From NCBI RefSeq assembly GCF_037975245.1, contig NC_092573.1:6746501-6810500 (forward strand): DNA of 64,000 nt. The letters run 5' to 3'. Position 1 is the stretch's first letter; every line of letters begins with the position of its first letter. Source of the DNA: Apostichopus japonicus. Lineage: Eukaryota; Echinodermata; Holothuroidea; Aspidochirotida; Stichopodidae. The notes under the pieces are model-generated. The model did no database searches. It worked only from the letters and a program-made list of their open reading frames with translations, and was not told the origin of the DNA. Made by a program: the position numbers and the translations under genes. Shown one piece after another: positions 14,246 to 44,104 of the stretch.

Positions 14246-14320
<75 letters not shown>

Positions 14321-16978: not shown

Positions 16979-17402
16979 GATCTACCTACAAACCACTTAT
17001 AGTGGTGATAGTCAACGTTCCGAGAAATTAAAAGAAATGTATTTCTCGAAGCCCTGTATTGTCTACTTATTGTAGCACATAAGTTAGATTTATCCCTATA
17101 CGTATCAACGAGACTCAATTTGAAAAGAATGCTTAGCTGCTCGTTTCCTGTAGTTAATTCATACTTCCACATGCCACCTATACTTTTCGTTATAGCAGCG
17201 CGATTGAAGTCATTCTTTAACGTTGTAAGATGTAAACAACATTCCTTAGAAAGTGTGAATCACACATCAAGTAAAATATTGTTGTTGATAGCTAACTTTA
17301 TCCTAAGGCCCATGATACCTAATATGTCAGCATGCAAGAAACAGTTTGAATTAATCTCTTCAAGGACAACGTCAAATATTGCGACAGTTATATCGCTGCA
17401 AT

Positions 17403-19251: not shown

Positions 19252-20642
19252 TTACTGCTGTTTATAATGAAAACGGGGATCATTGAACGTTAAATGAACG
19301 ATGTTAATTCTAACTCTTCTCTGCTAGAGTTTTAGCGGTAACCAAATATAAGAACACCATCTTATATATGTTTATAATTAAATGTTCAAAAAACTAACTT
19401 ACCCGAAGAACAAGTCAATGAGTAGAGAAACAGAAATAATGAAATATTAGACCGCATCCTCAATTAGCAAAATAATTATTCGAATCTACAAGAAAGGTTT
19501 TGCTATTATACGTGTATAAGTAACGAGTGAAAATTGAGATTACATTCATCTTATTTTATAAGAATCTTCTCCAACAAAATTTGATTCACTGCCAAAAGTG
19601 TTTTATTTGACGAAGAGATTAAGACTATTGTTATACTTTTAAAGCTGGTATTTACTTTGTTTACCATGCGGTTTAAATTGCTAGGAAAGATAACGGTTGG
19701 GATAGCCATATGGGCAACTCTCATAGATTATCAGGTGTTTACGGAGAAGTCTTATCAGAAAACAAAACGCTTTCCCCGAAGCCACTGTTGACCAATTGAA
19801 ACAAAATAGAACACCTTTTGAAATGACTCATTTCATAAATCATCAATATAGTTAGTTGTAAACGTCTTCAGATGAATTCACGCAATGCATATACTTCATC
19901 TTGGGTTCCTTTTCATTAACTGGAAATGTGAAAGCTATTATGTTTATTTCTGTTTTGGAGTATAAAATTGTATATCGAGTATTTATCACATGTTTACGAA
20001 GCCATATTAGTATCATGCAAAATTAACTATACTCCCTTCACATCATAGACTGTCGATTTGTTATCTCAATATTTTGTTCTCATCCTATTTTGTTATTACC
20101 AATGAGAATATTGTTATCGCATTAATTTGTTGTAATCATAGTCTTTCTTACAGTTTGGTTTACTGCCTGTAGTAAAAATTGATAAACGAGGGTGATATAT
20201 TCCAATTCATATGGCTATTTTCTCCGATCAACCTGTTTTTCTAAAGGGAAGGACTTTGACGTCACTGTAAATAGGTTGCATTTCTCCGTGACTTCAGAAA
20301 CCTTCAAAAAAAGATAATCGTTTAGATAACTAAGATTAAAGAGGGCCTCATTTACCGGTTGTAGAAGCTTTGGGTGATAAGCGTTCATAGGTTATTTTTC
20401 GAACACTTATTTTTAGGATATAAAGTGGTTTTCTGACACTAATAATAGCATTTTTAATGATAAGCATTATAAACAGACTTGACGTTATCACATACGCCAG
20501 TATGACTCCTCTCTGCAATGCTATAGAACTGGATTTTCTTATCAAAGGGTATATTACGTTGTCGTGAATCATTTTCTCTAGAAACAAGTTTGTCAAATTA
20601 AATTCTTTCAGAATGGACAATAAATTAGAATATATTTAAAGT

Positions 20643-21683
20643 ATTAACGTTGCGGATTTTTATAAGAATGGTGATTATTGGGTTAATCTCGTTAGCCGAC
20701 GTGTTCACAATCCATTCTGGAAAGATGTTTTTTACTCCACTTGGTTATACCTGAATAATTTTTTGAATTCTCCTCATTTGGATAGTTCGCTTATCTGTAG
20801 TCTGCCAATTTGGAATATCTCCCTGGTGACGATAGGGGATTTCCCGGTTGATTATCGTCATTGGGCGCTTCATGGCGTACTTTTCATTGGTGACTTGATT
20901 GATGAAAACGGACATTTTCTTCCTTTGATTCACTTTCTTGAGAAGTATCCCATTAAGACCAATTTTTTGGAATATCATGGCATTTTTCGGTCTGTAAAAA
21001 CCAGGCTGCGTAGTATTACAGATGCCTGTAATGTTGAGTATCTTTGTGGCCCTGTTAACAGTTTCATAAATATACTATTGAATATGGGTAGCTTTGATTG
21101 TAAATATGTTTACAATCATTTGCTGTATTCTTCTTACCGCCCGTGTAAATCTTATCTCAAATGGACAGAATCGTTCAGTATTACTAGTGCGGATTGGGCC
21201 TTGTATTGTACAGTCCCTTTTAACTCTAGTAGTGATATTTACATTCGCTGGTTTCAGTATCGTATTCTTCATAGAATCATCCCGACAAATTATTATTTGC
21301 AAAAGACTGGTATTGTTGCATCAAATATGTGCACTTTTTGCCTGCTTAATCTTGAAACAATAGAACATTTGTTTTATCATTGTGATTTTGTTCAGAGAAT
21401 TTGGAAATTCTTTGAAAACCTTTTCATTAATGTTGATATTAAATTTCATTTGGATATTTCTGAAGTTTTGTTTGGGGGCGACTTTTCACGTGTCCTCAAT
21501 TTAATGCTCATTTTGATAAAATGTTACATTTTTAGTTGTAAGAAAATTAAGATTCTTCCCACAGTGATTGGCACTGTGAAATATCTGAAAGAATATTTTA
21601 TGATACAAAAATTGATTTTTCAAAAGAATATGGATGAGTTGGTATGGGAGAAGTATTGGCTCCCTTGGGTACTTTTACTTTAA
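20643..21683 (+). pseudogene. C-terminal part of LINE ORF2 (L1/Tx1-like)
   Basis: The frame is open from the 5' truncation point through a stop at 21681-21683, about 346 residues. It lacks endonuclease and reverse-transcriptase cores and holds only the C-terminal region: IRWFQYRILHRIIPTNYYL, then a zinc-knuckle CTFCLLNLETIEHLFYHC (C-x2-C-x8-H-x4-C), and a late WEKYW motif. This order and spacing match the C-terminal tail of L1- and Tx1-clade ORF2 proteins. The intact frame suggests a recent insertion. The fragment cannot encode a working transposition protein. Confidence 0.85.
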
Positions 21684-21800
21684 TCGTGACAGTTCGTTTA
21701 TTATTTTTGTTGTCACTTGTTGATTTCATCCTTTTATTGTGTATTGTTTGATTTTCATGAGCAATAAAAAAAAATAAATAAATAAATAAATAAATAAATA
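20643..21800 (+). mobile_element. 5'-truncated LINE with target-site duplication
   Basis: A 20-base direct repeat (AATTAGAATATATTTAAAGT) flanks it at 20623-20642 and 21801-21820, and copy 1 has the empty site near 3356-3375. The insert ends in an AATAAA-type (TAAA)n tail, typical of target-primed reverse transcription. Only the last part of ORF2 is present. Confidence 0.95.
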
Positions 21801-24224
21801 AATTAGAATATATTTAAAGTCGATGCTTTTCGTCAGGCTGGCAGCTCTAACGATATCAGAGAAAGTTATTTTTTTTTATATTTTCAGAGCTGATCAGATG
21901 TACTATATTAATAGGCTATGACCATGATGATATAGTGCATTTATAACCTACCATCTTCCTTATTCTTGTGCAGGGATGTAATCGTATATATGTGTTTAAA
22001 GCGAGTGTAACAGCATGCAAAGAGGAACCTTTTAGACCATTTCTTCCGTCAAAGTAACTACAAATATTACAGTTTGTCTGTAATCATTGAATCTCTATCT
22101 TAATCAATCTCAATCTCGCCAATCTCTCCTCTGGCCCATCACACCTCCTTACTCTCCATGCTACCTCTTCCTGATCGAAGTCTCTCCCTTCCAGCTGTTA
22201 GCTGGTGGTTTTGTTCCTCTCTGGCTTACACCAAGAGATGAGCCCCTACGAATACAACAGCCAGTTAGGACAATTTCCTGATGCTATAACCTCTCTAAAC
22301 TGTACTCCCATATCATGCTTCAAAGCACTGGTATTGGCAGTTCAAACAGTTCCTACCCTTTATCTGATAGAAACATGACATTCATACTGTGAAGAAAAAT
22401 TGTCCCAACTCGGTGAATACAATGTCATTACGGGTTGTGGTTTTAAGGATGGGTGCTTAGGAATCTGCATAGGAAGTGAAATAGCGCCAACATCTCACTT
22501 TTGTACGCGCGACTCCTTTATAACAGCCATTCATTGCAATGATTGCACAGTTATACAGAGTACGGTACCCGAAAGTAGGTTATTATTCTGACGTCTTCGG
22601 TGACGTCATTAATTATAGTTTATTTGACGTTACTTGTTAAACGTTGATTCTGTTTCATGGAAAACATAAACCGGTATAGGCCTATATATTTCACTCTTAA
22701 TTCAGAAAAGCTTGAATCTGGCATTTCTGAGTGTCTACAAATTACTCATACCGAAGTAAAGAGCGTGTTCTTGTGATATTAAGAAGTCTTGCAAAATTTC
22801 CTTCTCGTTGCTTTCTCCGACTCTGTTTGAGCTCAAAAGTAAAAAAGTATTGTCGAGGGGAAAGTTGTATTAGACTGATGTAAGTAATACTTGAATGTAT
22901 TTCCTACTTAGCGTATTCGAGACGTTGATAATGAAAGTTGTGATTGTTTGTAGCAAAAGTGAACTTGAAGCAAACAGGTGTGATGTCATAGTTGAACACT
23001 AACAACAAAATGTTTTTGTTTTGTTTAATGTTCACTTATTGTTTTCACTCTGGAATGGATAGGGTTCCAACTTTACCCATTGAAGGGGTATGAAGTTAAC
23101 AATATTCCAATAACTGTGGTGTATTGATAATTTGGAGATGAAACTTAAATACATGAAATACATAAACATATATTCGTCGGAATACTTCTATCACAGCATA
23201 ACTGAGTTCCGTTTTGGTACAAAACCTATGAACTTTAAATGCTGTTATCTCAAAACTAGTACGTATAGGATAACGAATGCAAATTGAACCACGATACCTT
23301 TTTCTATGGTATTTTTTTCTTAAATCAGATAAAATAAAAATGTCACCTGGAATATTCCTAATATATTCCATAATTGCTTTATATTTGTGTCATTAAATAT
23401 TTGAGATTTTTTTATTGTCGAGTGAAGTACAAATAAATTTGCCAATATTTGGTATGAATAATTTATTCATAAATGATAAATTGCATATACATGAAATAAG
23501 GTGGCTACTTTCCTGTAAATATAGTCTTTGCATTAAACAGTAACTTATAGCCTCAAATGAAGAACAGTGAGAGAATATAGTGAATTCTATGAAAAGTCTC
23601 AAGCATATTTATTTCTGACGTCACTTTGGTCATTCAGATATTCATGAGTGCAATTGGGCCAATTAAAACTATATACTCGAATATTCATGAGTGGAAGCTT
23701 TAACTTCTTGTGTATGTGGCATATTTTATGTTGTATTTGTGTGTGTATGTGTGTGTTTGTTTTTGCTTAATACTGGTTGAGATTCCTGCTTCATTACTCT
23801 GTTCAAAATTTTTGTGAGTGAGCATCTCCCCCCCCCCCACCCCAACACATTCCCAAACAATAAAATTATCCTTTACTCACAAGTTCACCTACCTGATCTA
23901 TTTCTCAACACATCAGTTCATAATTACTCATTACACTTGAAATTCACATCTAGAGTTGATCTTTATCGTTAATGAGATCCAGACCATCGTAATTGTTGAC
24001 TTACTTAATGGGTTTGAGTTCCGTCTTGTTTCAACTACATTGTAACCTATCATTTCGTGAATCAACCACGATCGCGCACAGAGGTTTACATTCTAACCAT
24101 GCATGTTATACAGGAAATGTATTTTTTTTAGGGCTAGCTTAAAAGCGAAAGAGATAGATAGATAGGGAGAGAGAGAGAGACCACTACACATGTGGAGAGA
24201 GAGACACACTTTCGGATTCAAGTT
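21801..24224. other. Non-coding part of duplication copy 2
   Basis: Counterpart of 3356-5785 with small differences. A poly-C tract near 23828-23838 sits at the matching place in copy 1. No gene is seen. Confidence 0.6.
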
Positions 24225-25520
24225 GAAAAAAAAACCCCAGCACAAATCGAGCAGTTGATACAGTTCGAAAAGGATATGCTCAATATGACTAAGAACAACC
24301 CCTTCCAGTCTCTACTTGAGGCGGACATTGACCATATTTACATTACATCATAGAAAAGCTAGTCGTGCATGCGGACAAAACAAGGAACATGTTTTTAATG
24401 GACAACACCAGCTACAACAAACTTCTCACCGATAACATAATCCCCAAAATATAGACTTGCCGAAGCAGAAATTGCGACCAAATCGACACCGAGTTCACAT
24501 GTATTGCTGATGAGCAGAAATTAAGTGACATAATAGATAGAACTGACGCGAAGAAAACATACATCACCTTGTAGGATCACAAAGAAAATTTCGAGAAAAA
24601 AAAACCGAAATGCAGATTGATCAACTCTACGAAAAACGAACTAGGAAATGTGGGTCAACAAATGCTAGACCGTATTAACAGTGAAATTAGATTAAACTCC
24701 CAGATCAACAGTGGAGAAATACCCAATCTGTATTGGAATGGCTCCAAAACCGCCTATCCTTCTTAGTCTTTGACAAAGTAGACTTCTACCCATCCATAAC
24801 CGAGAAGGCTCTTCGCCACATCTTGAAAATGGTCCCGCCAGTTCCCCCGAACTTGGAACACACCACCATCATGCATACCCCACCTTCACGACAAGAAAGG
24901 AAAATGTGGGTGGAAAAGGTCTCCCGTAACACCTTCGACGTCACCATGGGTGGCTAGGACGGCATCTAAATATGTGAATTCATAGGCCTGTTCATTCTAT
25001 ATCATCTAGATCAGAAGCTTAAAATTAACCTGGCCAGCATAGGCTTTCTTAGAGACGACGGCCTTCCAGTCATAACAACCATCCAGGCCCCAAAGCAGGC
25101 CGCGCTAGCAAGCAACTAATCCAGATTTTCCAGTCATTTGGCCTACAAATAACCGTCCAAACCAACCTCACATCAGTCAACTATACCTAGATATCAACCT
25201 TAACCTTGTAACCGGCATACACCAACTAAACAGGAAACCCGATGACCTACCCATGTACATCAACGCGAAATGCAACCACCCACCACCTATAATCAGGCAC
25301 ATTCCCGTTACCGTAAGGAAAACAATATCTTTGCTATCATCGAACCGCGACGTCTTGAATGCTGCCGCTCGCGTATATGACGAAGCCCTGAATTGAATTG
25401 GATACACATAATCCGACCAGTACACTCAACTTAAACAAGGTTATGAATGCCAAGAGCGCCAACCCCCCCCCCCCCACCCCCTCTTTTCAGTATGAATGTG
25501 AAGACCAATATTCAGCAGAA
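24225..25520 (+). pseudogene. Decayed reverse-transcriptase-like gene, copy 2
   Basis: Same broken gene as at 5786-7080. The segment LSFLVFDKVDFYPSITEKAL is preserved near 24750-24810 and the CNHPPP piece near 25270-25285. Additional small indels are present (for example in the A tract near 24597 and the C tract near 25463). Not functional. Confidence 0.65.
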
Positions 25521-25859
25521 ACACCATGAAAATCAGCTATATAGCTGCACGATAAATATGAAGTCAATCATCCAATCACATAACTCAAAAAACGCCAAGG
25601 AGACAAGCAATTCGACCCCTGCTAGATCATGTGACTATAGATATACACGTAGTCCCCCCCCCCCTCACACTGGAAATGTTTAACCAAGTAAAGGTAACAA
25701 AATGTAAACACAAATGTGATCCTTAGAAGTTTCAGAAAGGTCGGTATACTCGCGGCAGCGAAAGTTATACTTGTCAGTCTATAGTTCACATTGACAACAA
25801 TAACTCTACAAGGAAATGCGACAATGACATACAAATACTATATACATATACAAGATTAA
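25521..25859. other. Upstream region of Ig receptor gene 2
   Basis: Matches 7081-7403 with substitutions and a C tract near 25654-25663 that is absent or short in copy 1. No gene is seen. Confidence 0.35.
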
Positions 25860-25879
25860 GGAAGTAAGACATAACTTCC
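25860..25879. promoter_or_regulatory. Inverted pair of ETS-like sites upstream of Ig receptor 2
   Basis: GGAAGT at 25860-25865 and ACTTCC at 25874-25879, identical in arrangement to copy 1 and about 150 bases before the ATG. Confidence 0.35.
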
Positions 25880-26030
25880 TGTATGCACAAGGAAAGCGTT
25901 TATACAGAGAAGTCTCAATATCACAACCAACAAACCCGTGAATTGCGATTGCACATATTTTGTTGGATATGTTGTATGTATCATAGCTCAATCTTCTCAA
26001 TTCTTACTAGCTTTGAATTCATATTTTGTT

Positions 26031-27386
26031 ATGGCGCTTTTTGTCGCGTTTATCGTATTAATGAGCTGTTTGCTTCGGTCTGCTTATGGAGACGAAATGT
26101 TGGCTTTTAATACCACAATTTCTGAAGGAGTTTTCTTGGCTTACACCGGTAATGCAGTAGTTCTGACCTGTAATCCTCTTGATGGTGCAGTGAATGTTCA
26201 GATACTGAAAGGGAGAGGTAATACGTTGTTACTTCATAACGGAGAGATAAAAGCAGGCGACGGACGCTATCATCGAGTTCAATCACCCGGAAAAGGGTAT
26301 AAGTTATCGATTCAAGATCTTAATACGTCGGATTCAGATGTGTATACATGTACCTGGGATTACCGTTGGTATAAATTGATTAAAAATGTGTTTTGGAACG
26401 ATGAAATACACGCAGAACTTCGAGTGGTCAATCGTAAGATGAAAGAATGTTTTCTAATGAATGGATTTGACGGCATATTTTTCGTAGGAGAGACATTTGA
26501 TGTATACTGTCCTAAAAACATTACTGTTAATCTATACATTAAAGAGGGAACTAAAAATATCGATGTGCAGTCGACACTTGAAGATACTAAGTTCGAGAAC
26601 GTGGCGTTGAGACGTATACATAATATATCGGCACAATATAATAACAGCAGGTTGGTGTATAGTAAGGAAGGCAGTGACTACTTTAACTCAAGTCCAAATA
26701 TTACTGTATACGAAGATTTACAAGTAACGGTAGAGCCTCAGACTGTAAATGTTATTGAAGGAGGAAACATAAGTCTTACATGCCGTAGCTTCCCTCTGAT
26801 ACCATCAGCATCAATCGAATGGGATTTATCTGGAAGCCGGAATATCATTTCCAATGTCAACGTGTCTCACACAGTTAACGGATACAGATCGATAATACTC
26901 ACAGTTAGCTTTCAAAATGTAACAGAAGTAGAAGATCAATATTCGATCAAATGCAGAGTAATCGCAGGATCAAAGAATAAAACCAAGATGGTAACCATTC
27001 AGCAAGAACGAAAAATGACCACCGACGTCACCATGACAACAAATTCATCGACGGAGATTATTCAAATAATCAAAGACGTCACCACGGCAACCAATTCACT
27101 GACGGGGATTGGACAGACACAGTCGAGGTTACAAGACGAAAACAGTAAAATGTTGATCATTGTTATACCACTTATTGCTACACTGGTGGTTATTTTCGGG
27201 GTCTTTGGTGTAACTTTGTACATAAAAAGGTCAAAGAGAGACGCAATCACAACAGAAATTGGAAACATTGACACCTTTGATCAAACAATGTATGCCAATG
27301 CGAAGATTGAGATGCAACTCACGGAAAATGATTCTGAACTCATACACAATACAGTTTACGAGTCATACATGCACGGAAAAACTTGA
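26031..27386 (+). CDS. Immunoglobulin-superfamily type I membrane receptor, paralogue 2
   Basis: Single-exon paralogue of 7575-9029, 451 residues from ATG 26031. The frame extends upstream but that part has no signal peptide at its start, while ATG 26031 begins the same MALFVAF signal sequence as paralogue 1. The signal peptide and first 50 residues are identical to paralogue 1. Residues 51-141 differ at 26 positions and gain one residue (His81). In the second Ig region Cys209 and Cys217 are replaced by Tyr210 and Phe218. The third Ig domain differs at only about four positions. The stalk has two 17-residue repeats instead of four. Membrane span and tail are nearly identical, keeping YANA and VYESYM. 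It appears intact and expressible. Confidence 0.85.
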   Translation: MALFVAFIVLMSCLLRSAYGDEMLAFNTTISEGVFLAYTGNAVVLTCNPLDGAVNVQILKGRGNTLLLHNGEIKAGDGRYHRVQSPGKGYKLSIQDLNTSDSDVYTCTWDYRWYKLIKNVFWNDEIHAELRVVNRKMKECFLMNGFDGIFFVGETFDVYCPKNITVNLYIKEGTKNIDVQSTLEDTKFENVALRRIHNISAQYNNSRLVYSKEGSDYFNSSPNITVYEDLQVTVEPQTVNVIEGGNISLTCRSFPLIPSASIEWDLSGSRNIISNVNVSHTVNGYRSIILTVSFQNVTEVEDQYSIKCRVIAGSKNKTKMVTIQQERKMTTDVTMTTNSSTEIIQIIKDVTTATNSLTGIGQTQSRLQDENSKMLIIVIPLIATLVVIFGVFGVTLYIKRSKRDAITTEIGNIDTFDQTMYANAKIEMQLTENDSELIHNTVYESYMHGKT

Positions 27387-27583
27387 TTGATCGAACTTAA
27401 CAAAACACCGACTTTTCATGGGTCTATAAAAGTAGTCAACTTGCTTGTTCATTTAAACTCTCACACATACACACCCACAAACATCACTGTAATGGCATTT
27501 GAAAAAATACAAAAACTACACGCTACACACATTTTCGGACACCCTGGTCCTTCGTCAGGTGTAAAAGAGTGTTTGAAATCACG
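27387..27583. other. 3' flank of Ig receptor 2
   Basis: Non-coding, shorter than the matching flank of paralogue 1 by about 100 bases. Confidence 0.4.
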
Positions 27584-28010
27584 TTAGTCTACCGTATAAG
27601 CCCCAGACTGCACAAAGTTCTTGAACCCGGAAAGAAAAGCCATATCCCTATTGAGAACATGACAGTGTGAATGTACTTTAATGATCAATTCGACTTCCTT
27701 CAAGTTTCTGTTACTATGGTCAGACAAATTACCCAGAATTATGGCAAACCTAAGACAGTCGATATTGTGTTGTAGAAGATTAAAATGTTCAGCCACTGGA
27801 AAACTGGTTTTGTTCAGTCTGATTGTGCTTTTGTGATTATTAAGTCTTATACGAAAAGGAGTGGAGGTTTGACCAATGTATTGTATATCAGGACAGAGAA
27901 CACAAGTGATAAGATATATCACAAAGAGAGTGTCACAATTGTATGGACCTGGATGTAAACACATCCCTCAAGGAGAGAGCTGAATGTCAGGGTCCGTGAT
28001 CATGTGATGG

Positions 28011-28052
<42 letters not shown>

Positions 28053-28153
28053 CTCACAAAATGTGGAAGTAAACAGAAAACAAGTTTTGTAATTTTTCCA
28101 CCATGTTTTACGAGGACTTTAGTGATTGATCTACAACATCCTCGGCCTACCAT
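27584..28153 (-). pseudogene. GIY-YIG endonuclease fragment, copy 2
   Basis: Same remnant as 9319-9864. A TCA serine codon of copy 1 is TGA here (about 27965-27967), splitting the frame into 27584-27964 and 27968-28153. The TA tract in the N-terminal side is longer. The GIY-YIG motif (VIYLITC, QYIGQTS, FRIRLNNH) is unchanged. Confidence 0.72.
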
Positions 28154-29039
28154 TGGAATATGCGGGGAAGATATGTAATGATTGAATCAAGTATTGCATA
28201 TGTGCATTTCTGCCCAGATGTTACTTTTCGTCAGGTACTAAGACAATAGCTTGACGATAACGAATTAATCTATACGTCGAACAATATGTTTTTATGGTAA
28301 ACAATAATGATGCTGAAAAGAAGGTATACGAAAAGGAATAACTCATAAACAGGTATATTGATTTCTAAATTAAGTTTTAATCTCTTTTGTCTGTTTGCAT
28401 GCCCACTATTATACCAGAAATATCATTCTTAAAAGTGTCTTAGAACTAGCTTTCAGTCATACAGCAAACATGGAAGGCTCGCACATTGCCAACCATCTCT
28501 ACGACGTCAATACGACATTGTCGAAGTCACAAAAGTTACAAATCAAAATCCGTTTCAACAACTATGGTGTTTTTGTCCTATAGTTGTTTAAGTGAATTGG
28601 TTACATTAAATAAACACCGGTTAGGTGTTGCAGCAGAGAAAACGAAAGGTTACTCTGTTCAAAGTTACTTCCTTTAGAACAGAAACAGAAACATGAACAG
28701 AACCGAACAGAAAGAAACAGAACTCATTCGAAGAAATCGATAATTAGACGATCACTCTTAATTGGCAACCTGTTATAGCATTGTATGATAACGTTTACAT
28801 TGTATTATATATAGACGTCAAGCAGTAACGGTAGATAGAACGATTGTTCCTGTCTTTATTTTATATTTCTTTTGAACTTTAACGCAAATGACAATAGTTT
28901 TCCTGTATCCATCTTGATAACCTGTAACAATATCCTAGGTTGTAAAAGTATCGGATGTTACAATACTTTATTGATATTCTTGGTTGTAAAATTATCGTAT
29001 GTTACACTACTTTATTCATACTCTGTACATACTTAGATA
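28154..29039. other. Non-coding sequence of copy 2
   Basis: Counterpart of 9865-10730. A roughly 60-base segment with TTGTAAAATTATCG is locally duplicated near 28940-29015. No gene is seen. Confidence 0.45.
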
Positions 29040-29720
29040 CACTGTAAAACCCAACCGGTAGATGAGCTTTCTGAACAAGGGTTATGACAGTCAGGATGAC
29101 TCAATAATGTTAAAATAAGCGTTACAACATGATTTACGTAAGTTTTATGCGGAAACGTAGATCAACGTATGAAGATATCGTTGTTTCAACTTGTGATGGT
29201 CGAGTATCAAAACATTTCTACATGAAAACGACTGGAAAGAGAAGACTGTGCGTATTGAAACAAAATTACCGGTAAGTGATCGCTCGCGCGCGTATATCGA
29301 CTAAGTAGATAACATACGTCAGGGGCCAGCTTTTCCAAGTCTTGGATGATTTAAGGTTCGTATTTAGAATGATTAATGCTCAATACAGTAATGATATTCG
29401 CAAAAATTCGACTGAATCTGAAATATGTTGTTAAAATTAGCCCAAGTCAAAGTTTAAAACTTGCAGCATGAAATTATATGCGTGATTGAATTGGATTAGA
29501 AAAGTTACTATTTCAACAGCCTAGCCTACAAAATTTATAAGCTCCATTTCACGTTGAACGTAGGCTGTGCATCAGGTTAGGCTATAGAGCTTTACAGATA
29601 GGCCTAACCATTAACAGTTGCGCAGTGTGAGACAAAGGAGTAAAACATTCGGTTCATCAGCATGAGCTCATGTGGTTAATACATGGTACTGATGAGCAAA
29701 TTTGAATGAGGTATAATTTA

Positions 29721-30001
29721 GAGATATGTTTGTTGTGATTGGCAGTGATAGTGGTCATTCTGTACTAGCAAATATACAAACTATTATTGTTGATAAAAAC
29801 AATGGATGGCTTGTAGTAAAATTGCATAAATCTATTTTTCAAAGCCACATTGGAGCATACAAAGTGACAGAGACTGAAAACTATGATCAAGTAGTTTGTC
29901 CAGGTAATCTTAAAGATTACTACCCTCTAACTTCCTACACTATGAGAGAAGCTAAAGTGGTTGTGTTAAAACACTCTGTAGATATACATGAAGAACAATA
30001 G
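29721..30001 (+). pseudogene. C-terminal exon-like fragment of a transposon-associated protein
   Basis: After a TTTAG acceptor near 29720 a frame runs to a stop at 29999-30001. It includes VIGSDSGHSVLANIQTIIVD and the ending LKDYYPLTSY...VVVLKHSV. I recall similar endings in uncharacterised multi-copy proteins of fish and invertebrates, where a Tyr-Pro-Leu motif precedes a LKH close. It stands upstream of the SAMD3-like start, so it may be the last exon of a first gene in the same element or a rearranged piece. No function is assigned. Confidence 0.45.
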
Positions 30002-30327
30002 GAGTTACCCTAAGTTGAGTTGTCTGTGATAAAGCATGAGCCTTACTAAACGTTGAAAGATGCAGTACTTGGATGACATTTACATGCAAAATTTCTACTC
30101 ATGCAAGTAGCCAAGAGTAGATGTACAGTAGATCAGCTGCCATACTGCATATTTATGCAGTGCATTTGGTATACTGCAGCTGAATGGGTTGTTGCACTTA
30201 CTGCTAAAATATTACTATGTGGTACAGTACTGTAATTCTAAGGGGAGTGTACGAAACAATATAGCCAGCTTCTAACTCACTTACATTGTTCTCTTTTCAT
30301 GCATAGGATTGCTCAGAAATTGATACT

Positions 30328-31475
30328 ATGTACAAATTGAGGGTAGTGTTGTCACCAAAGGACATTCAGAAGGTGTCCCTTGAGCAACGTCCAGAGTCTG
30401 TTGAAAACCTTATGGAAACTTTGAAAGATAAGTTAAGCCTTGAAGGCAGTTTCTAAACGTTTACGTCTAAACGTTAACCCAAGGAAGCGCTCCTACCCTG
30501 GAACGTCTTCATCAAAACACAAAAAACCAAAGAGAGCAGAAATAAATTACTTACCAGACATTCCAATTGGAGAATATGCAACAAGTATGGAGTCTTATTG
30601 AGAAAACTTTTGCACAGAAGTTCAAAAAAGAAACAGGGTCATGGACAAGATTTAAAAAATGATGATAAGGACCTATGCATACCGTAGACAGGACCTGGTC
30701 TTAAATGCGCCAGCCGTCAACGAAATGGTAGAAAGATGCCCGCCTTATTTCTTCCCGGTGAAGTAAGTTCCTTAATTGTCAATTAATTTATTGGGGTGCT
30801 GTCTCCTTCACTAAAATTGGACATTTTGTTTTGTATTTTTCATGATATAGTAGCTGCAGTGTATAATGAGTAATAAAAGTAATCACAGTGGGTGATTAGT
30901 GTTAGAGATGTTTTATTTCTTATGTATAAAATTTTGGTAAAATACAGAAAAAAAGAGATACAAAGTATGTGGTCTGAATATGGTGCAGCAGGGTGATCTG
31001 ATCAGTAATTAGCATTTTAAGCATTTTTTAGCATTAGTAATTAGTATTTTTTAACCCATGGATGTCAGTCACTATTACTTATTTTGTTTGTCACTAATAT
31101 CTGCACTAAATACCTGTAAAATTAGTTTTTAACTGTATATTATATATGGTCTTACCCAGGATTCCGATTGGCAGTTGACTACCATCGACAAATGCACTTA
31201 CAAGTTGCATTTATACTCTCACCTTGGAAATGGCTTTCTATAATATTGCTACCTGGCAAAAGGGAGCCATTTTCTTTTCATATGGCAAACTTAACTAAAT
31301 ATTGTTTTCTACATTTCTCATTTTATTCTTTCAGTTGAAGGCTGAGTTTTCGAGGTTAAGCAACCTTGCTCTGGACAGCAGTTTCTTTTCTTCACTAGAC
31401 CAACACCTTGACAGAATGGTGGAAATATTGTCAACCAGACAAAAGTTTCAGAACTTGTTTCACTTTGAGACAGGG
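30328..31475 (+). pseudogene. Decayed SAMD3-like gene inside the transposon
   Basis: Four pieces recall multi-copy 'sterile alpha motif domain-containing protein 3-like' proteins of fish. Piece one, 30328-30456, opens MYKLRVVLSPKDIQKVSLEQ and ends early at a stop after LEGSF. Piece two, 30476-30601, reads KHKKPKRAEINYLPDIPIGE then stops. Piece three, 30659-30763, reads RTYAYRRQDLVLNAPAVNEM and reaches a GTAAG-like splice site. Piece four, 31335-31475, begins after a TTTCAG acceptor with LKAEFSRLSNLALDSSFFSS and ends near GGG/GTAGGC. Stops and missing sequence between the first three pieces show decay. Function of this family is unknown to me. The downstream part of the gene is not recognisable in 31480-33900. 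Confidence 0.65.
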
Positions 31476-33900
31476 GTAGGCTATATAACTCATTCTGTAG
31501 TGTATGGTATGATCAGATAATACAAGAGCTCATTCATCTATATTCTTGTTTTAGCAATACTTCAAATACAGTAAATAAGAGTACATACTTTTTATTAGAA
31601 ATTACCTTGTGACAATTTAACAGTTACATTTTGCATTGTGTGTACAATATTACATGCAAAACTAGCATAAAGGTATGCTGTATTTGCCCCAAATATACCA
31701 GATATTCAAATATGGTTACCTTTGGTAGCACAAAGGTACTGTATGCTGTATTTGCCCCAAATATACCAGAAATTCAAATATGGTCACCTTTGGTCAAAAT
31801 TCTTACACTGTTTTTATTACCACCTTGGAGGAAATTTACTTTAATTTTGGTTTGTTTCATTTTTGCATTCTACTGTATATGTTAACAACACCATTGGTTT
31901 ATTTGATCCATCGTAAGTACAAATTGTGTCCTGGATATAGATTCAAGAAAAAGGGACTGCTGAATATTTTTGCTAATTGACAGCTTAAACAATAATATTC
32001 TTTAGTTAAAGAAGTTAATATATTGCTGTTTTAGTGTAATTTATCAACAAAAAATAAACCGTCAGGCTACTTAAATAACCCTCTTAACAATTTGAAACCA
32101 TGCCTGTGGCATTACATTCCATTATAAACATTCATAGTTATCATGCATCTGAAGTGTTTAAATAGTTCATGTGGTGTCCTGAGAGATATTGCAAAACTCC
32201 ATTTGACTGGTAATTATCTTGTTTCTTGGTAAATCTTGAAAATGTGTTGAAACAAATTGTAATATGGAACAGGATGCCATTGGAAATTGTTTCTCTGCTT
32301 TTACATTTCAACTTATGAAGAATTGTTGATTGGGTGAATAGGCACTAATAATAATCATTGTAATAATCAAAGAGCGAAACAAAGTTAATTTTATGATATG
32401 CCGATGTTTTCTTCAGGCAGAGAAATGATATAATAGCCCACACCTCTAGTGAGTTGGAAGGGTCCAAAAATGTCTGAAAAAAATTCTATCGGGCTTAAAC
32501 TCTAGTTTACATTTTCATTTTTATTCAGAGCCATTGTTTGTCAAATAATCACTTTGTACTTGCTTAGTTATGGAGAATTTCTAACAGCTTGCTTGCATCA
32601 ATGTGATTGGTATCATAGTATATGTTTCAGAAATAATTTGCAAAATTTGAAGTTACAAACATGTTCATCCTAAACAAAGCCCAATGAGGGATGTACTGTG
32701 AAATCATTTACAGGAAGTCAGTATTAATATTATATATACTGATAAAGGAAAATGCATCAGATATATCTGTGTTGTGATGAAACTATTCAAATCACAGTAA
32801 TACAAGTGTTTGAAGGATCCAAAAACTGGCAAAAGACAGGATTGACAATGGAATTCTTTCAAAGTATTTTGTGTTCCAAATGGGTAAAAATAAAGTGCTT
32901 TGCTGTAAAGATCTAAAAAACAAACATTTTTCATTATGACTTTACTTTGCATGCAGGTTTTCATGAGCAAAGACTGTTGTGCTTCCTCTCAGATTATTAA
33001 AAGAGTTTTACAGAGTTGCTTTATCTTCTGATTAAAATGTAAGTTTTTGAGTACAAAGGACCAAACAGGGGCTATTTGCTGAACCCTGGCTTGATTTCAT
33101 ATACCCATTTCTAGGATGAAAGGTTGTATGTGATTCCCCAAACATATCCTTAGCTTTCATGGGAACTAGTTTCATGGTAATTTCTAATATAAGGGATCAA
33201 AATACCCTGAAAAGAAATTTTTCATATCATTGAAAAGATGAAGTTCCTGTTCTATGCTTGGTTTTCACAATTGAACAATGCTCTTATCCATCATAACTAG
33301 TCTTTGTTATAAAAACAGATGCAAGAACAATTGGTCGCATCACTATAGCTTTGCTAATGACAACTTTAAGTGCATTCCTTTAGTTAATGAAACATTGGTG
33401 TTTTGAGCATCGTTGCCTATTTACATGATGTAATTATGATTCACCTATAAAACTATTTGCCACAAAATTAAAAGTCTTTAGCTGAAACAATCATATTGTA
33501 AATGGCTGAGAGGAGTGGTTACTTCTTTCTTCTTGGCTTTTAACAACATTGGTTATTTCCAGCAGCCATAACATATTAATTTTACTTCTGTATTTCATAC
33601 CAAAGAACACATGCACTTGAAATTGGTATTTACTATCTCAAATGAATCATGGAAATGAATGATTGCAGCAGGCATGTACCCATGCTCCATGTTCTTCTGT
33701 ATCTCATTATTGATACATTTTGGCGTTGTTTCCACCGATAAAAGTATTAGGCACTTTTTATGCGTTTGATTATTTCTTCTATTTCCTTGTTAAAGTACAT
33801 TGTTACTGACTTCAGAGGTTGAAAATAAAGTTGTGTTGTTAACTTAGCAATATATAGTTTTCTTTACTAAAATTGTCTGTTGTCATAACTCAATTAAATT
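31476..33900. other. Interior of the 5.26-kb transposon without recognised exons
   Basis: AT-rich sequence with a short local duplication near 31673-31795 (GTATGCTGTATTTGCCCCAA repeated). No coding piece could be assigned on either strand. Confidence 0.4.
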
Positions 33901-34295
33901 GAGGTAACCCGCTGCCTAGAATATTCCAAGTAGCGTCAACTTAAATATTCAAAGGTAACTCTGGAGATAATGGAAAGTGGGAAAAACTTGAATTGGTCTT
34001 GTCAGTTTAACGAGGAAAGGCTATGCTGTATCAGCTCTAATGTTTTAGTTACCATAACTTGCCCAGCTTTTTCTCAAAAACAGATAAAGATTAAATTTGT
34101 TGGACTTTGCTGATATCTGTTGCCACAACTGATGAACATGAAGTGTAACAAAGTAAAACCAGTGAGTTGGTTGTAACCACTACTGTCAAGTCTTACTTAT
34201 GGAGTTTCTGGGTTAGTAGAGTGAACTTAAAAAAGTTAAGGCAGCGGGTTACCTCGACTTTTTCAAGTTGTCTTGACGTGTTGGGTTTTACAGTG

Positions 34296-34861
34296 TACGG
34301 TACTCTATTTCAATACGGACCTCGGATAATCGGAACGGAGAACATTTTTAGCAGGATCTTATGATGCGGTCGCTTGGTTCTCCTCCTAACGGAGTCAGAC
34401 GTCTTACAATCACCAGGGAAGTAGCCAGAAATTTGAAGGGGGGGGGGGGGGATCAGAAAAGAAAAGGGGCACTTCTCACAAAAAGGAGCATTTTTCACAT
34501 TTAACGGAACGCCATGACTGTACTAAGCAAATTTGAGCCCAAAGTGCCTCCCACGTTGCAGGAAATAACCAATACTAAGAGTATATTGTATTTACGAAGC
34601 GGACGAACTTTTAGCAGAAAGATTGAGAAGGATCGCTTAGCTTCCTTAACCTGAAAAGAGGGCTTAATGATCGGGAATACAGCAGCAAATGTATTCAAGA
34701 AATGCATGTTTCAAGGAATAACCAACGTCATTCTCTAATAAAAAAAAGCTTCACGTCCTGGTTCACACCTATATCCGTCTGATCAATGTTATGGCCATTG
34801 TACTCCAAAAGTTAACTGTTTGTTTAAGAACATTCTCGACGGCATTGTTCACATGTGTTAA
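34296..34861. other. Non-coding sequence of copy 2 with an old hAT-like end
   Basis: Counterpart of 10734-11260, including the shared hAT-like terminus with a G tract at about 34416-34465. Confidence 0.45.
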
Positions 34862-36116
34862 AAGGATTGTCTGGTGGCCCAAAGAAGTTACCTTAAAAAA
34901 TAGTAAATAATTTTCCAAACATGTTGTCAAAGTATGAGAACGCTAATGTTGCGTTTGACAGAGAAACGATTTTTTAATCGTTATGGATAGACATTTCAAA
35001 TATGATTTGAACAGTACAATACGTGACGTCAGCTCTGCCATAGCAGATTGCGTCATAACCCACCCTCCGCACAGTACCTATACGGTAATCACAACAAAAA
35101 CAGCGTTTGTATACAGATAAATTTCTTCCTTAATTTCCGGTGAAATTTCTTAAAAATTAGATATGTTTTCAAAAACTCCTTAAGCCGCCATGTACTTGAG
35201 CGGTGGTTCCGTGGTCTTTGTGTAACACAAGGTAAATTTTAACAGCAGACTCTGAGTTGTTCAGGCTATACATCGCGCTATCCAGCTCCAACGCGAAAAA
35301 TGTTCGCATGTAGGCTGTACTCAAACGTTGACAATCGGACAGTTCTGCGAAGCCTAAGCTTCTCAGTGCTATATTCTGCTCTGACAACGATTCGATCAAT
35401 TTCTTCAATAATTTCCGGTGAAATTTCTTATAAATTAGATATGATTTAAAAAACTCCTTAAGCCGCAATATATGTAGTAGATCGGTGGTTTCGTGGTCTT
35501 TGTGTAACACAAGATAAGTTTTAACAGCAGGCTCTTCGTTGTTTATACATCGCGGTATCCAGCTCCAGCGCGAAGAATGTTCGCGAGTATAGGCTCCTCT
35601 AACGTTTACAATCGGACAGTTCTGCGATGACATCGATCCTGCCAAGTTTCATCTTTCGGTTTAACGAATACTTTATAAGTTTCCTTTTACTGTTAATCTG
35701 ATCCGTGAATTTTATTTCAGCGATTTCGAAGAACAGTTAATGAACTGTGGTTTGAGTGTGAGTGTACTATGTGTAACGCTATACAATTACACCAACTGAG
35801 CATCGTAGTATATACGTTCGCAAGTATGTACGTTATATATATATGAGGCAATTCAATGTGCTTACACGTGAGTTAATTTGCTGCGGAATTGAGAGTGCTA
35901 ACTTCAAGTCGCCTGTTTTGCCTATCTGCAAGCACTACGTCAATCACCATATTGAAGCGTTCGAACAAACGGTACTTTTGGTGAGAAACTGGTGAATTTG
36001 AAAACCAGATTTCTACAAGAAGAAAACGTCGAATGGGGACAATTTTTACATGGTTAGAAAGAGAAAAATAATAACTACAAGGACAATGTATCAAAATCTT
36101 CCACCAGACAATTCCT
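34862..36116. mobile_element. 1.26-kb TTAA-flanked non-autonomous DNA transposon
   Basis: TTAA at 34858-34861 and 36117-36120 flanks ends AAGGATTGTCTGGTGG and, in reverse, AGGAATTGTCTGGTGG. Copy 1 has a single TTAA at the matching place near 11259, so this is an insertion. TTAA target sites point to Kolobok or piggyBac; the terminal bases favour a Kolobok-like element (inference). No transposase is encoded. Confidence 0.85.
35128..35610. repeat. Internal direct duplication within the TTAA element
   Basis: About 35130-35345 and 35405-35610 are near-identical copies, each with TTTCCGGTGAAATTTCTT, a GTGGTCTTTGTGTAACACAA stretch and CAATCGGACAGTTCTGCG. The long minus-strand frame across both (35169-35645) is repetitive at the peptide level and is not credible as a gene. 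Confidence 0.8.
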
Positions 36117-36120
36117 TTAA

Positions 36121-36880
36121 GCTATATAGCTATATAACTTAGCACAGTTTAAAGTGTACAATACCATGTACGTATCTCGCAATTACCGTTATGTCGGTCA
36201 CTGTATTATTGTACGTCTTAATATGAACACATTGGCTCGTGTTGCTATGCCAATTGGACGCAGGCGCAGGATGCCCTTTCGTCAGATCGTTATGCTGTAC
36301 AACGTAGTGTTATTTTATTTGCGTATTAATATTGTTTTGAGACGCTTTTCTTTAGTAACAGTAAAGAAGAACGGAGTACTCTTTCGAGACAATTGCTGGT
36401 TATGTTTCTTTTAAAGTTGATATAAAATTGTAACTTTCTGAGATAAAAATTAATGTTTACGTAGTGCTTTGTATGAATGAATGGATTCGTGGATTCGTGC
36501 ATTATCCTGGCCGGGGCGATAAACGCACGGTAGACCAATGATTAACCACCTAATTAACAAGTTCTTATGTAATTACATCATACTGCACTGGTTCGTTACA
36601 TACAAGAATGTTTGGATAACAATGGAATGTACACCTGCATGATTTGTATTGTCATAATACGCTGCAATGTCTGGTATTGTTCCAAACGTTATAAAATTTA
36701 AGAAGCATGCCCTCATTAACTGAAGTTACCTAATGCCAAGGTGCGGGATCTTTTTGAGAAAGCTATTGAAGAATGACGTATTTCTCACGTATTTCTTCAC
36801 ATTTTCGTTTTTAAATTAGTTGACAAATTTGATCCAATTTTGATCTACAATATTTGATTTTATTAAACTTTAAATAAATA

Positions 36881-36931
<51 letters not shown>

Positions 36932-36957
36932 GTATATATATGTATGTATATATATGT
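36121..36957. other. Non-coding duplication tail in copy 2
   Basis: Counterpart of 11261-11476 joined to 13702-14320, running into a TA microsatellite (about 36880-36960). It includes the empty site for the copy-1 hAT insertion near 36330. Confidence 0.6.
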
Positions 36958-37320
36958 ATATGCATTTGCCTTTGTCGTTTACCTCCATTGCATTAACATA
37001 AAGTCTGTTCAAAGTATCTCTTTCGAGATCCGGCTTTAGGAATCACAAATGATTTCGGGTTGGTTAGCATCATGTTTGATCTCTAGAGTAAGGCAAAATA
37101 TGTCACCAAAAACAGAACTAGTATTGTTCGATACAGGTGACAAACGCCTACAGTGGAATTACGACCTTCCTTACCGGTTTCGAACCTCTGGACATACAAT
37201 CAGCGTCCATAGCCTAGTGGTTAGGGTGTCCGCGTACAGAGCGGGAGGCCCGGGATCGAATCCCGGTGGAGGCTGGAAGTTTTTTCACTGTTCTTGATTT
37301 TCCAACTCATTACGATTTTC
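36958..37320 (+). mobile_element. tRNA-derived SINE-like insertion in a TA microsatellite
   Basis: About 360 bases interrupt the TA repeat that is continuous in copy 1 (14240-14320). The insert contains a tRNA-like core at 37203-37273 and, upstream, a second B-box-like match (GGTTTCGAACCTC near 37177-37189). The exact edges are blurred by the flanking TA repeat and no target duplication could be read. Confidence 0.6.
37203..37273 (+). tRNA. tRNA-like sequence, probably SINE head or tRNA pseudogene
   Basis: 71 bases fold as a tRNA. The acceptor GCGTCCA pairs with TGGAGGC (one G-G mismatch), the D arm contains TAGCCTAGTGGTTAGGGT (A-box-like), and the anticodon stem TCCGC/GCGGG holds loop GTACAGA. 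The T arm CCGGG-ATCGAAT-CCCGG matches a B box. The anticodon position reads ACA, which is not the usual cysteine anticodon (GCA) and argues against a working tRNA. Confidence 0.5.
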
Positions 37321-37607
37321 ATATATATATATATTGTAATGTATATGTAATACGAATATTGCATTCTTACCACATACCACGAGGCAGTATATTTATGGCG
37401 AATACTAAGCCTATACTCATACCATTGCATTCAGCTACTATATTTATTGTCTGTAACTAAATTATGCTTATTTATTTCTCGTCGGTTCTTGTGATAAATA
37501 TACACGATACATAAACAAAACCAACAATAACGATGCATATGTATGTTTTACTGTGTAATAATAACACTATATTCTACATTATAAACTAAATGTGTATAGC
37601 ATTAAAC

Positions 37608-37641
<34 letters not shown>

Positions 37642-38486
37642 ACATTATATGATAGTTGGTAATAAATAATTTATGACAGTGCGGGCAATGACATTAATGA
37701 AACATCTCGGTATTCCCATTAGAAGTGAACGAACAACTGAAGCATAGCTGCTATGTAGGTTATCTTGTATCAAACCATATTCTGCAGGCCTCATCGCGTC
37801 ACAAACATATGATATAATCATTTTGAATGTGTCATACAACTGCGACACATTACTATAGGCCGATGGCAGAATGAACAATTGGAAACATTACAAATGAATT
37901 ATTACCTATTTGATTGATCTCTCAATTTGCATAAAATTGCTTATTGACATGTGTTTGAATCATTTAACTGGATAATTACACAATCAGTTGAAGGTATGGT
38001 CGCACGTATCGTCCTCATAGCTTTTTTTCCCCTTCCATGTCGGATATAAATCATCTTTCATGATCTACCTACAAACCACTTATAGTGGTGATAGTCAACG
38101 TTCCGAGAAATTAAAAGAAATGTATTTCTTGAAGCCCTGTATTGTCTACTTATTGTAGCACATAAGTTAGATTTATCCCTATACGTATCAACGAGACTCA
38201 ATTTGAAAAGAATGCTTAGCTGCTCGTTTCCTGTAGTTAATTCATACTTCCAGATGCCACCTATACTTTTCGTTATAAGAGCGCGATTGAAGTCATTCTT
38301 TAACGTTGTAAGATGTAAACAACATTCCTAAGAAAGTGTGAATCACACATCAAGTAAAATATTGTTGTTGATAGCTTACTTTATCCTAAGGGCACATGAT
38401 ACCTAATATGTCAGCATGCGAGAAACAGTTTGAATTAATCTCTTCAAGGACAACGTCAAATATCGCGACAGTTATATCGCTGCAAT
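37321..38486. other. End of duplication copy 2
   Basis: Counterpart of 14321-15030 joined directly to 16979-17402. No gene is seen; a TA repeat lies at about 37610-37639. Confidence 0.6.
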
Positions 38487-39105
38487 ATTGTGGCAATGTT
38501 CTGGCTCATTCTGTTCACATAACATTACGATGATATATCTACAAAGATTATATTTACGCAATTAATCACAGGATTTTTCATTTTATTTAGCAATATAATT
38601 TTAATTTATTAGTTTGTCACTCCGTTTTTCTTATCTTTTTCGTCGTTTATAAAGCTCCTCGACAAATTCATAGTATGCGCATGCTCAGTACTTTTGTTAA
38701 TGAAGTAAGAGAATTCTTACTGAAAAGACTAACACATAATATATCAATCATTCGTCTTATATTAGTTTTCGTCTTGATGTTTATTTTGTCACATTTGCAG
38801 AACTTATCCATTAATGTCATTTCGAATTCGATTAAGAGAGTTGATTCTAGCGTAAATTTTTAAAAACTTCGTGTCTTAATAAAGAAAAGGTTAATGTTGA
38901 TGCTATGCATCGATGTGCTTTGAGGTGTACTAATTACCAGATGTACTGCGTAACTACAGATGTAAAATAAAACAAAAACGTTGTCTTAAAAAGAAAAATT
39001 GATCTGGTCCATTTTCTATGTGAAGGAATTGATTCAGTTCGACCCCTGCACCCCTCGTCCAGGAAAAACTGCAGACTTTTTTTTAAGTACCGATAGTCAA
39101 TAGAG
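38487..39105. other. Intergenic, unique
   Basis: No gene or repeat recognised. Confidence 0.45.
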
Positions 39106-42139: not shown

Positions 42140-44104
42140 TTAAACAGGGGTCTCCGGCATGGTGTTCCATTTTACCTTGTCCAACTTAGCAGGTGACCCC
42201 GGAGACAACTTTGGTTCATCCTGCTTTGATGGTGTCGATGTTAGCATTGGTTCAGGAGTCTCTGAAGTAGTACTCTGTTGTCTCAACAGCTCAAAGTCAC
42301 TTTCTCTGACAAGCTCATACTTCCCAACTTTGCGGTTCTTCTTAAGTAAATCTATCAACGTTTGGTCGTCTTCTAATATCCTCTCTCGTTTTCTGCAAAT
42401 GTACCAATTTCTTCTTGAGCCACGGAAGATGTGGTATAACTTACACCCTACAACAAATGTCAGTACCGACAACCAAACCGCTATTAGCCATGTCATGTGG
42501 TGTAGTTTGGGGAAACTATTACATATTAAGGAGGGGTAGTAGTCGCCCAAAGCTTCAACTAATAACTTGTCTTTTAAATATGGAGGTGAGGTACAGGTGG
42601 CTCTGGTGATTAAATCGTATTGGAACACGTACTCGGGTTCTTCTACTAATACGCTTACCAACCACCTCACATTACAATCACATTTTAATGGATTATCACT
42701 TATTTGAAACTCACGTAATTGCTTTGCTTTATGAAATACAGATTTTTCTATCGTCTTTAATAGATTGCTGTTTAAATAAACCTCCTCCAAAGCGTAGCAT
42801 CCTTGAAAGATATCCTCCTCTAAAAATCTGATGCGATTGTAGGAGATTTTAACTGTTTTTAAATATCCTAATCGGCGAACATTTGGAAAATGTCTTAGTT
42901 TGTTATGGTCTAACTGTAAATACATGAGGTATGGAATGTTATTGAAGTTCAACGGTTCTTCTTCATCACTTAGCATGTTTCGTTGGATACTCAAGTCTTG
43001 AAGTTGATCAAAGATTGTCAAACTTGTAGCATTCCAAACTGGCAGATAATTGCCAGACACGTCTAACTTCATTAAGGAGTTCGACAGTGGATAGAGTGTT
43101 TCGGGAGACAAAAACAGAAGTTGATTACGTTTCAAATTTAAAATTCTCAAGTTTGAATTACTAGCAAATATAGCAGGAATGTGTTGCAAAAAGTTATTTT
43201 GAAGGTAAACCTCTTCCAAGTTGAATAAATGAACGAACAAATCGTCCGGTAATGATGTAAGTTGATTCATGCTTAGGTCCAATATCTCAAGCTTATGAAA
43301 CCATTGGTTGAATGACGATTCCGCAAGACACTGTATGTTACTGTTACTGATTGTTAACACTAATAGAGATAAATTTCTCTTCGGAAGATCGAACCAAGAA
43401 GCCACATTAACACATTGCACAGACTGATTAATCATCATATCATATGAGCTACTGACAGAGTTGTAATTGTCGTAATAGTCATCAGACACTTCAGCGTTCA
43501 ACGAGGGAGATGACGCAGCCTCCATGTCCGACATGGTCAACTTTCGAAGTTTGACCAGAGAGGAGAAGGTTCCTCTTGCTATTTGAGTGAGATCGATCTC
43601 ATTTCCGTCCAGAAAGAGAGTTCTCATCTGATTGTGGTCCAGGAATGTCTCGGATGGGATTGTCTTGATTGAATTACTTCGCATATCTAGAATCTGCAAC
43701 TTGGTCATTTTGCTGATTCCATAAGGCACTGTATGGAGTGAATTCTGGCTCATATCTAAGGATATTAGTTTAGTTAACATACTGAGCGTTCCGTTTGTGA
43801 CTGATGTCACCCCACTGTTCACCAACGCCAGTTCACGGAGGTGTTGAAGGCTGGATACGTTGAAATTGTCCGGGGTCAAATGAGTAAAATTATTATCATT
43901 GAAATAAAGTGAATGATATTCTCTGGGTAAATGAGAGGGCAATTCTTGCATCATTGTACCGGAACAATTTATACGTAAGATGATGTCATTGCATTGACAC
44001 ACGTCTAGACAGGATGGCATCACATAGTATCCAAAAGACGAAAGGTGCATGGTGGATAATATCATCCAGTATGGCAAAAGCATGTTTATGAGAACAGCGG
44101 CCAT
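42140..44104 (-). CDS. Leucine-rich-repeat type I membrane protein, single exon
   Basis: 654 residues from ATG at 44104. A hydrophobic leader (residues 1-27) is followed by an LRR N-terminal cap (CLDVCQCNDIILRINC, about 32-47). A run of leucine-rich repeats covers about 60-490, with clear units such as LISLDMSQNSLHTVPYGI and LEILDLSMNQLTSLPDDLF. The cap NPLKCDCNVRWLV...CTSPP...LICNS follows at about 495-553. One membrane span lies near 560-582 and a 70-residue basic then Ser/Thr/Pro-rich tail ends the protein. A non-repeat island at about 195-245 (DDYYDNYNSVSSSY) breaks the LRR series, as loops do in some Toll-like receptors. There is no TIR domain, so it is not a standard Toll receptor. A cell-surface adhesion or recognition role is likely; no orthologue is named. 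Confidence 0.85.
   Translation of the reverse strand: MAAVLINMLLPYWMILSTMHLSSFGYYVMPSCLDVCQCNDIILRINCSGTMMQELPSHLPREYHSLYFNDNNFTHLTPDNFNVSSLQHLRELALVNSGVTSVTNGTLSMLTKLISLDMSQNSLHTVPYGISKMTKLQILDMRSNSIKTIPSETFLDHNQMRTLFLDGNEIDLTQIARGTFSSLVKLRKLTMSDMEAASSPSLNAEVSDDYYDNYNSVSSSYDMMINQSVQCVNVASWFDLPKRNLSLLVLTISNSNIQCLAESSFNQWFHKLEILDLSMNQLTSLPDDLFVHLFNLEEVYLQNNFLQHIPAIFASNSNLRILNLKRNQLLFLSPETLYPLSNSLMKLDVSGNYLPVWNATSLTIFDQLQDLSIQRNMLSDEEEPLNFNNIPYLMYLQLDHNKLRHFPNVRRLGYLKTVKISYNRIRFLEEDIFQGCYALEEVYLNSNLLKTIEKSVFHKAKQLREFQISDNPLKCDCNVRWLVSVLVEEPEYVFQYDLITRATCTSPPYLKDKLLVEALGDYYPSLICNSFPKLHHMTWLIAVWLSVLTFVVGCKLYHIFRGSRRNWYICRKRERILEDDQTLIDLLKKNRKVGKYELVRESDFELLRQQSTTSETPEPMLTSTPSKQDEPKLSPGSPAKLDKVKWNTMPETPV

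Follow-up and report, generated by a model that had tools for sequence, protein, structure and literature searches.

A probable CACTA/EnSpm-like transposon of Apostichopus japonicus with a SAMD3-like second gene

A shortened element and its full-length relatives

We analysed 64,000 nucleotides of the sea cucumber Apostichopus japonicus (assembly GCF_037975245.1, contig NC_092573.1, positions 6,746,501 to 6,810,500; this whole stretch is called the window, and its own numbering is used below) and found that positions 29040-34295 are a shortened, non-autonomous internal-deletion derivative of a two-gene transposon. The complete element is about 11.2 kb long and consists of a terminal inverted repeat (TIR; CACTGTAAAACCCAAC), a one-exon transposase gene, a spliced SAMD3-like gene and the second TIR. 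The SAMD3-like gene thus belongs, in this element, to the transposon and is no ordinary gene of the host; 'SAMD3-like' is a presumptive label. The explanation that we favour, with a rough probability of 0.85, is that the element is a cut-and-paste transposon of the CACTA/EnSpm-like kind, that the window copy is its deletion derivative and that the SAMD3-like protein is an accessory factor.

The insertion is 5256 bp long and is bounded by perfect 16-bp inverted ends, located at 29040-29055 (+ strand) and 34280-34295 (- strand) by end comparison and a genome-wide count of the 16-mer; with the flanking TA on both sides, the inverted ends are 18 bp. It lies in a tandemly duplicated region, with copy 1 at 2037-17403 and copy 2 at 19297-38487, whose aligned pieces match at 85-98% (94% in the longest). 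Only the second copy carries the insertion, and the first keeps an empty target. When the joined flanks of the insertion were aligned with the first copy, there was no gap at the insertion point. The alignment showed a 44-bp tandem-repeat difference on the left and small indels on the right, none of them at the junction. At the empty site GATA is followed directly by AGG, and at the filled site GATA is followed by the insert and then by TACGG. As the empty site is intact at 10721-10722 in the first copy, the duplicated target is TA, seen at 29038-29039 on the left and at 34296-34297 on the right of the element. An earlier note, made from the letters of this DNA, had described a discrete insertion with perfect inverted ends, CACTG termini and a TA target. 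The empty site and the gapless alignment bear out the insertion and its ends.

The genome searched was the window's own assembly (671.6 Mb, 35 contigs). The end 16-mer occurs 54 times in it, and a reversed control 16-mer does not occur at all. Forty-eight of the 54 occurrences form 24 facing pairs with a spacing of 5.1-11.9 kb. These pairs were selected by the CACTG..CAGTG end pattern, so that the agreement of all 24 in their ends is not independent support. Every pair is flanked by a 2-bp direct duplication, where simple arithmetic gives a chance expectation of 1.5 in 24. The duplications are TA in 19 pairs (counted by script), CA in two, TT in two and TG in one (these read from the flanks); therefore TA is preferred and not obligatory, and in this form the claim of CACTG ends and a TA target stands. 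Six 16-mers stand alone. Three of these mark elements whose opposite end is damaged or absent, one is an end fragment, and two (loci L035 and L038) are exact TIR 16-mers that show no homology to the element interior; they perhaps come from the termini of some unrelated short element.

Along its length, the window copy shares 99.2% identity with a copy at C12:4971761 (L022). In the final 650 bp it is 95.6-99.7% identical to 22 of the 23 other copies and 84.5% identical to the remaining one, L031+L032. This high identity indicates that the family moved fairly recently, and an insertion in one half of a duplication of about 94% identity fits recent movement. The last 400 bp of the element also contain an imperfect 45-nt inverted repeat (33887-33931 versus 34225-34269), whose core AGGTAACCCGCTGCC, which adjoins the right TIR, is present without a change in 23 of the 24 copies. 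Copy L031+L032 (G000:C19:2314400-2326305) is interrupted by a nested long-terminal-repeat retrotransposon with a long open frame, and the long copy L014 contains about 4.4 kb of unidentified extra sequence.

Two pairs retain a 2.76-kb block of the transposase gene and represent full-length copies, C17:9195058-9206227 (11,170 bp) and C19:19408217-19419506 (11,290 bp). Both contain an open frame of 894 residues from its ATG (905 codons between stops) with C2H2 fingers, and downstream of it, on the same strand, the spliced SAMD3-like gene. Three exons of this gene were recognised, the first (334 residues), the second and the last, and others between them may have been missed; the intron between exons 1 and 2 starts with GTAAGT and ends with TTTCAG. 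The same block is absent from the other 22 pairs, the window copy included. As these copies lie at different sites with their own target-site duplications, the derivative was amplified by transposition. At least a piece of a SAMD3-like match is present inside all 24 exact-ended pairs.

The window copy retains, all on the + strand, the following parts. The C-terminal ~93 codons of the transposase open reading frame (ORF) with its stop lie at 29719-30001, the remainder being deleted with the junction at about position 680 of the element. SAMD3-like exon 1 is left as a 5' piece that begins at the ATG (30328-30453) and a 3' piece (30467-30762) that ends with GAA at the GTAAGT donor, about 573 bp being missing between them. 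Exon 2 is at 31335-31475, with its TTTCAG acceptor at 31329-31334 and its 3' end inferred from a GT. The last SAMD3-like exon of the full copies is deleted. When three forward and one reverse read-through frame of the window element were compared with Pfam, there was no match at an E-value of 1. The earlier note had recognised pieces of SAMD3-like and companion proteins within the insertion, and the companion proves to be the C terminus of the element's own transposase.

Association of the SAMD3-like gene with the transposase

We searched the genome with the transposase and scored 51 of 419 candidates, so that the locus counts are lower bounds. At least 53 matches at no fewer than 51 loci were obtained; beyond the query's own two copies they are mostly 30-35% identical to it, and at 35 of the 51 listed loci there is no stop within the match. 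For the SAMD3-like protein, three queries were used, with 120 of 164, 100 of 189 and 116 of 142 candidates scored, and from the resulting 302 rows at least 134 distinct places were taken. A same-strand SAMD3-like match lies 334-8355 bp downstream of the transposase at 33 of the 51 listed loci. At none of the 51 was such a match found upstream or on the opposite strand within 10 kb. Random placement gave a mean of 0.08 pairings and a maximum of 2 in 1000 trials (four contigs taken as 30 Mb). The 33 paired loci make up roughly a dozen frame-length groups and are not 33 independent cases. The earlier note had envisaged a one-off capture if full-length relatives were to lack the SAMD3-like gene; both full copies carry it, and the pair recurs across these loci.

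The SAMD3-like exon 1 also bears a mark of selection. In 13 comparisons with one full copy, the ratio of nonsynonymous to synonymous change (dN/dS) was 0.21-0.51; the comparisons share ancestry, 12 of them involve deletion derivatives, a circumstance that pushes the ratio upward, and the value of 0.51 rests on six changes. A ratio below 1 records past purifying selection. The protein had no SAM-domain, Pfam or NCBIfam family above cut-off, and the three weak hits of exon 1 in a PDB sequence search (best E 0.019) are not credible. By eye only, its N-terminal domain looks PB1/ubiquitin-like.

Several observations weigh against a fixed partnership of the two genes. No SAMD3-like match accompanies 18 of the 51 listed transposase loci, which fall into about seven frame-length groups, nine of the 18 being in one group of 868-872 codons. 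Of the 134 listed SAMD3-like places, 24 are inside an exact-ended pair and 34 are downstream of a listed transposase, two being both; the other 78 lie neither inside such a pair nor within 10 kb downstream of a listed transposase. In addition, SAMD3-like exon 1 is interrupted by an in-frame stop in one of the two full-length elements. Three of the 78 places are elements with one end damaged or missing, and the rest may be deletion derivatives, elements with an unscored transposase, or free genes. The idea in the earlier note that repeated SAMD3-like families are cargo or machinery of a mobile element is thus shown for this element and its relatives, and not for every SAMD3-like locus, as those 78 are untied. 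A SAMD3-like fragment with 244-codon frames and common stops is repeated at about 10 places without a listed transposase (for example C12:6002016, C12:6017297, C13:21352295, C19:8040494 and C1:10849150 in G000), and resembles the deletion derivative of another family after amplification.

Gene capture occurs in CACTA and MULE elements, and the SAMD3-like gene could in principle be passive cargo, a captured host gene without a role in transposition. The broken SAMD3-like pieces in the window copy and in most exact-ended copies would suit such cargo, as would the transposase loci that lack the gene; the untied SAMD3-like places are what free host genes would leave. We nevertheless consider this unlikely. 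Order, strand and side are constant at the 33 paired loci, across families in which most transposases share 30-34% identity with the query, and the SAMD3-like proteins of three families have diverged down to 21-30% identity and yet keep long open frames. This constant arrangement, the open frames of diverged proteins and the dN/dS below 1 together argue that the gene is an old, selected component of the element.

From its position, its recurrence and its past purifying selection, the SAMD3-like protein would be an accessory factor analogous to the second protein of plant CACTA elements. The plant CACTA ORF2 protein aids excision and transposition (PMC4158355), and Spm requires both TNPA and TNPD (PMC1636069).

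Placement of the transposase

We aligned three transposases, two of which are 31 and 34% identical to the first. D362, D454 (in DNLGxH), C476xxC479, H688xxxH692 and E712 (in RFExKH) are invariant in all three, which suggests a DDE transposase with C(2)C and H(3)H motifs, the catalytic residues being assigned by motif. PMC12730594 gives C(2)C and H(3-4)H as a pattern of EnSpm, Mirage, Chapaev, Transib and relatives. The CA..TG termini, typically CACT[A/G], of the CACTA/EnSpm-like (CMCT) group are present in the 24 pairs, which were chosen by their CACTG..CAGTG ends, and the duplication of 2 bp, in the same 24 pairs and at the empty site, is within the 2-5 bp of that group. The ends, the duplication and the D-D-C(2)C-H(3)H-E motif would therefore place the element in the CMCT group. 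Both full-length copies contain a SAMD3-like gene next to a gene for a putative DDE-type transposase, a combination that the earlier note had proposed to look for.

Two further families were read at their ends. L042 and L043, two copies from different sites, share 99.2% identity; L042 has frames of 885 and 425 codons and a last exon, and the SAMD3-like frame of L043 contains a stop. Their 3' end is CACTGTAAAAA / CACTGTAAAAAAA, adjoining TA. L041, with frames of 932 and 349 codons, and L044 have a common 5' end at different sites, TA followed by CACTGTTAAAA / CACTGTTAAAAAAAA, this family being read at the 5' end only. A 20-mer from the L041 5' end, with up to one mismatch, was found only at these two 5' ends. 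CACTGT therefore begins one end of each of two diverged families, the 5' end of L041/L044 and the 3' end of L042/L043, and this supports the end type independently of the selected pairs. L042 and L043 lie at unrelated sites with a common 5' end that lacks CACTG, as if a shortened end still moved.

The following results count against the CACTA/EnSpm-like placement. Transposase_21 (PF02992) had no match in the three transposases examined. DUF4218 (PF13960), the C-terminal domain of plant CACTA transposases, gave E-values of 0.032 and 0.014 with two of the three whole proteins and of 0.0047 and 0.0044 with their C-terminal pieces, all below the cut-off (14.5-17.3 bits against 27), and nothing with the third; the weak match covers the region of H(3)H and E, and as a sub-threshold signal in two of three proteins it also speaks somewhat for the placement. 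An AlphaFold model of the transposase, made from the three-row alignment, had a mean pLDDT of 39, too low to be of use, so that motifs are the basis for both the RNase-H fold and the DDE assignment. No exact k-mer array of subterminal repeats was found in the terminal 400 bp of three copies, a search that does not cover degenerate motifs. The CACTG-less 5' end of L042/L043 is a further point of this kind.

A PDB sequence search with the transposase returned zinc fingers only, and IMG/VR yielded no transposase relatives, none being confirmed from either protein alignment.

The genome contains 20 separate Transposase_21 matches, which by eye coincide with none of the 51 transposase loci, and none of the 20 has a SAMD3-like place within 12 kb. 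Since the present transposase has no Transposase_21 match and the Transposase_21 loci have no SAMD3-like place at that distance, the element appears to represent a distinct CACTA-like lineage and not the classical TRC/EnSpm.

Membership in another TA-targeting superfamily (Harbinger/PHIS, Tc1/mariner, Kolobok or a KDZ type), with CACTG ends by coincidence, is highly improbable. The predominance of TA among the duplications and the missing Transposase_21 match would agree with such an origin, but CA, TT and TG duplications are also present, CACTGT stands at one end of two diverged families, and animal CACTA-like TRC elements make 2-bp duplications (PMC1636069). A chance co-duplication of two adjacent families of host genes, pieces of which an unrelated transposon happens to enclose, is scarcely credible. 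The earlier note describes such proteins as normally annotated as host genes in fish, but the pair is met again at dispersed loci on many contigs. In the two full copies, moreover, one set of TIRs with target duplications encloses both genes, and these copies contradict this explanation unless they are misassembled.

Proposed mechanism, surroundings and known systems

In the CACTA/EnSpm-like explanation, the transposase would cut at the CACTG ends and paste the element into TA. The SAMD3-like protein would act as a dedicated accessory factor, possibly in end synapsis, in binding of DNA or transposase, or in regulation. Derivatives without most of the transposase, such as the window copy, would be moved in trans.

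SAMD3-like genes are annotated as ordinary host genes in fish. These genes now gain a concrete origin or home in a mobile element whose ends, target and transposase are defined. A wider proposal, which we hold tentatively and at slightly less than even odds (the 78 untied places lowered them a little), is that the large families of SAMD3-like 'host genes' in fish and other animals mainly represent gene 2 of an ancient CACTA-like transposon lineage whose transposase has C2H2 fingers, and that the SAMD3-like protein is a required, co-evolved transposition cofactor. If the finding is general, many SAMD3-like loci are to be masked as transposon genes, and the function of vertebrate SAMD3 can be examined as a possible domestication. 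The pair also offers a testable two-component CACTA-like system from an animal.

Elsewhere in the window, each copy of the tandem duplication has an ORF of about 500 codons for an Ig-like membrane protein (7512-9026 and 25875-27383; type by eye), and the two differ in the number of Thr-rich repeats. ORF pieces at 9322-9897 (-), 27587-27967 (-) and 6134-6532 (+) look like GIY-YIG endonuclease and reverse transcriptase, perhaps remains of a Penelope-like element. A short-period repeat array at 17985-18505 also matches itself on the opposite strand, and a 664-codon ORF at 42143-44134 (-) resembles, by eye, a leucine-rich-repeat membrane protein.

Among the papers listed, no title or abstract opening linking SAMD3 with transposons was found, with Repbase and subscription papers outside the search; a sex marker adjoining a samd3 gene is reported with no transposon link in the available text of PMC11258905. 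The earlier note knew of no description of such an element. This remains true of the link between SAMD3 and a transposon in the literature searched, and not of the element as such, which belongs to the well-known CACTA/EnSpm-like group.

En-Spm of plants has internal-deletion derivatives (dSpm), as the present element does, and short subterminal repeat arrays bound by its second protein. Plant CACTA/En-Spm (TNPD + TNPA) also resembles it in the CACT[A/G] ends and in the combination of a transposase with a second, transposition-supporting protein (PMC4158355, PMC1636069). In contrast, the sea-cucumber element makes 2-bp and not 3-bp duplications, has no detectable Transposase_21, has a SAMD3-like second protein, and no subterminal array was found in it. 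The animal TRC/EnSpm elements (SmTRC1), as described in PMC1636069, are similar in the animal host, the 2-bp target duplications, the TIRs and the truncated copies. They differ in that TRC ends begin with CCC and the TRC transposase has Transposase_21; the 20 Transposase_21 matches of this genome have no SAMD3-like match within 12 kb. ESTA, Plavaka, Lanisha and other CMCT lineages (PMC12730594) likewise have C(2)C and H(3-4)H, CA..TG ends in most cases and 2-5 bp duplications, and ESTA shares the TA target. Some of these lineages carry an extra gene, TET/JBP, whereas here the extra gene is SAMD3-like. The transposase described here differs from the ESTA/Plavaka/Lanisha type by its N-terminal C2H2 fingers. 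Elements of this kind are known; this variant is set apart by its SAMD3-like second gene and its lineage of C2H2-fingered transposases.

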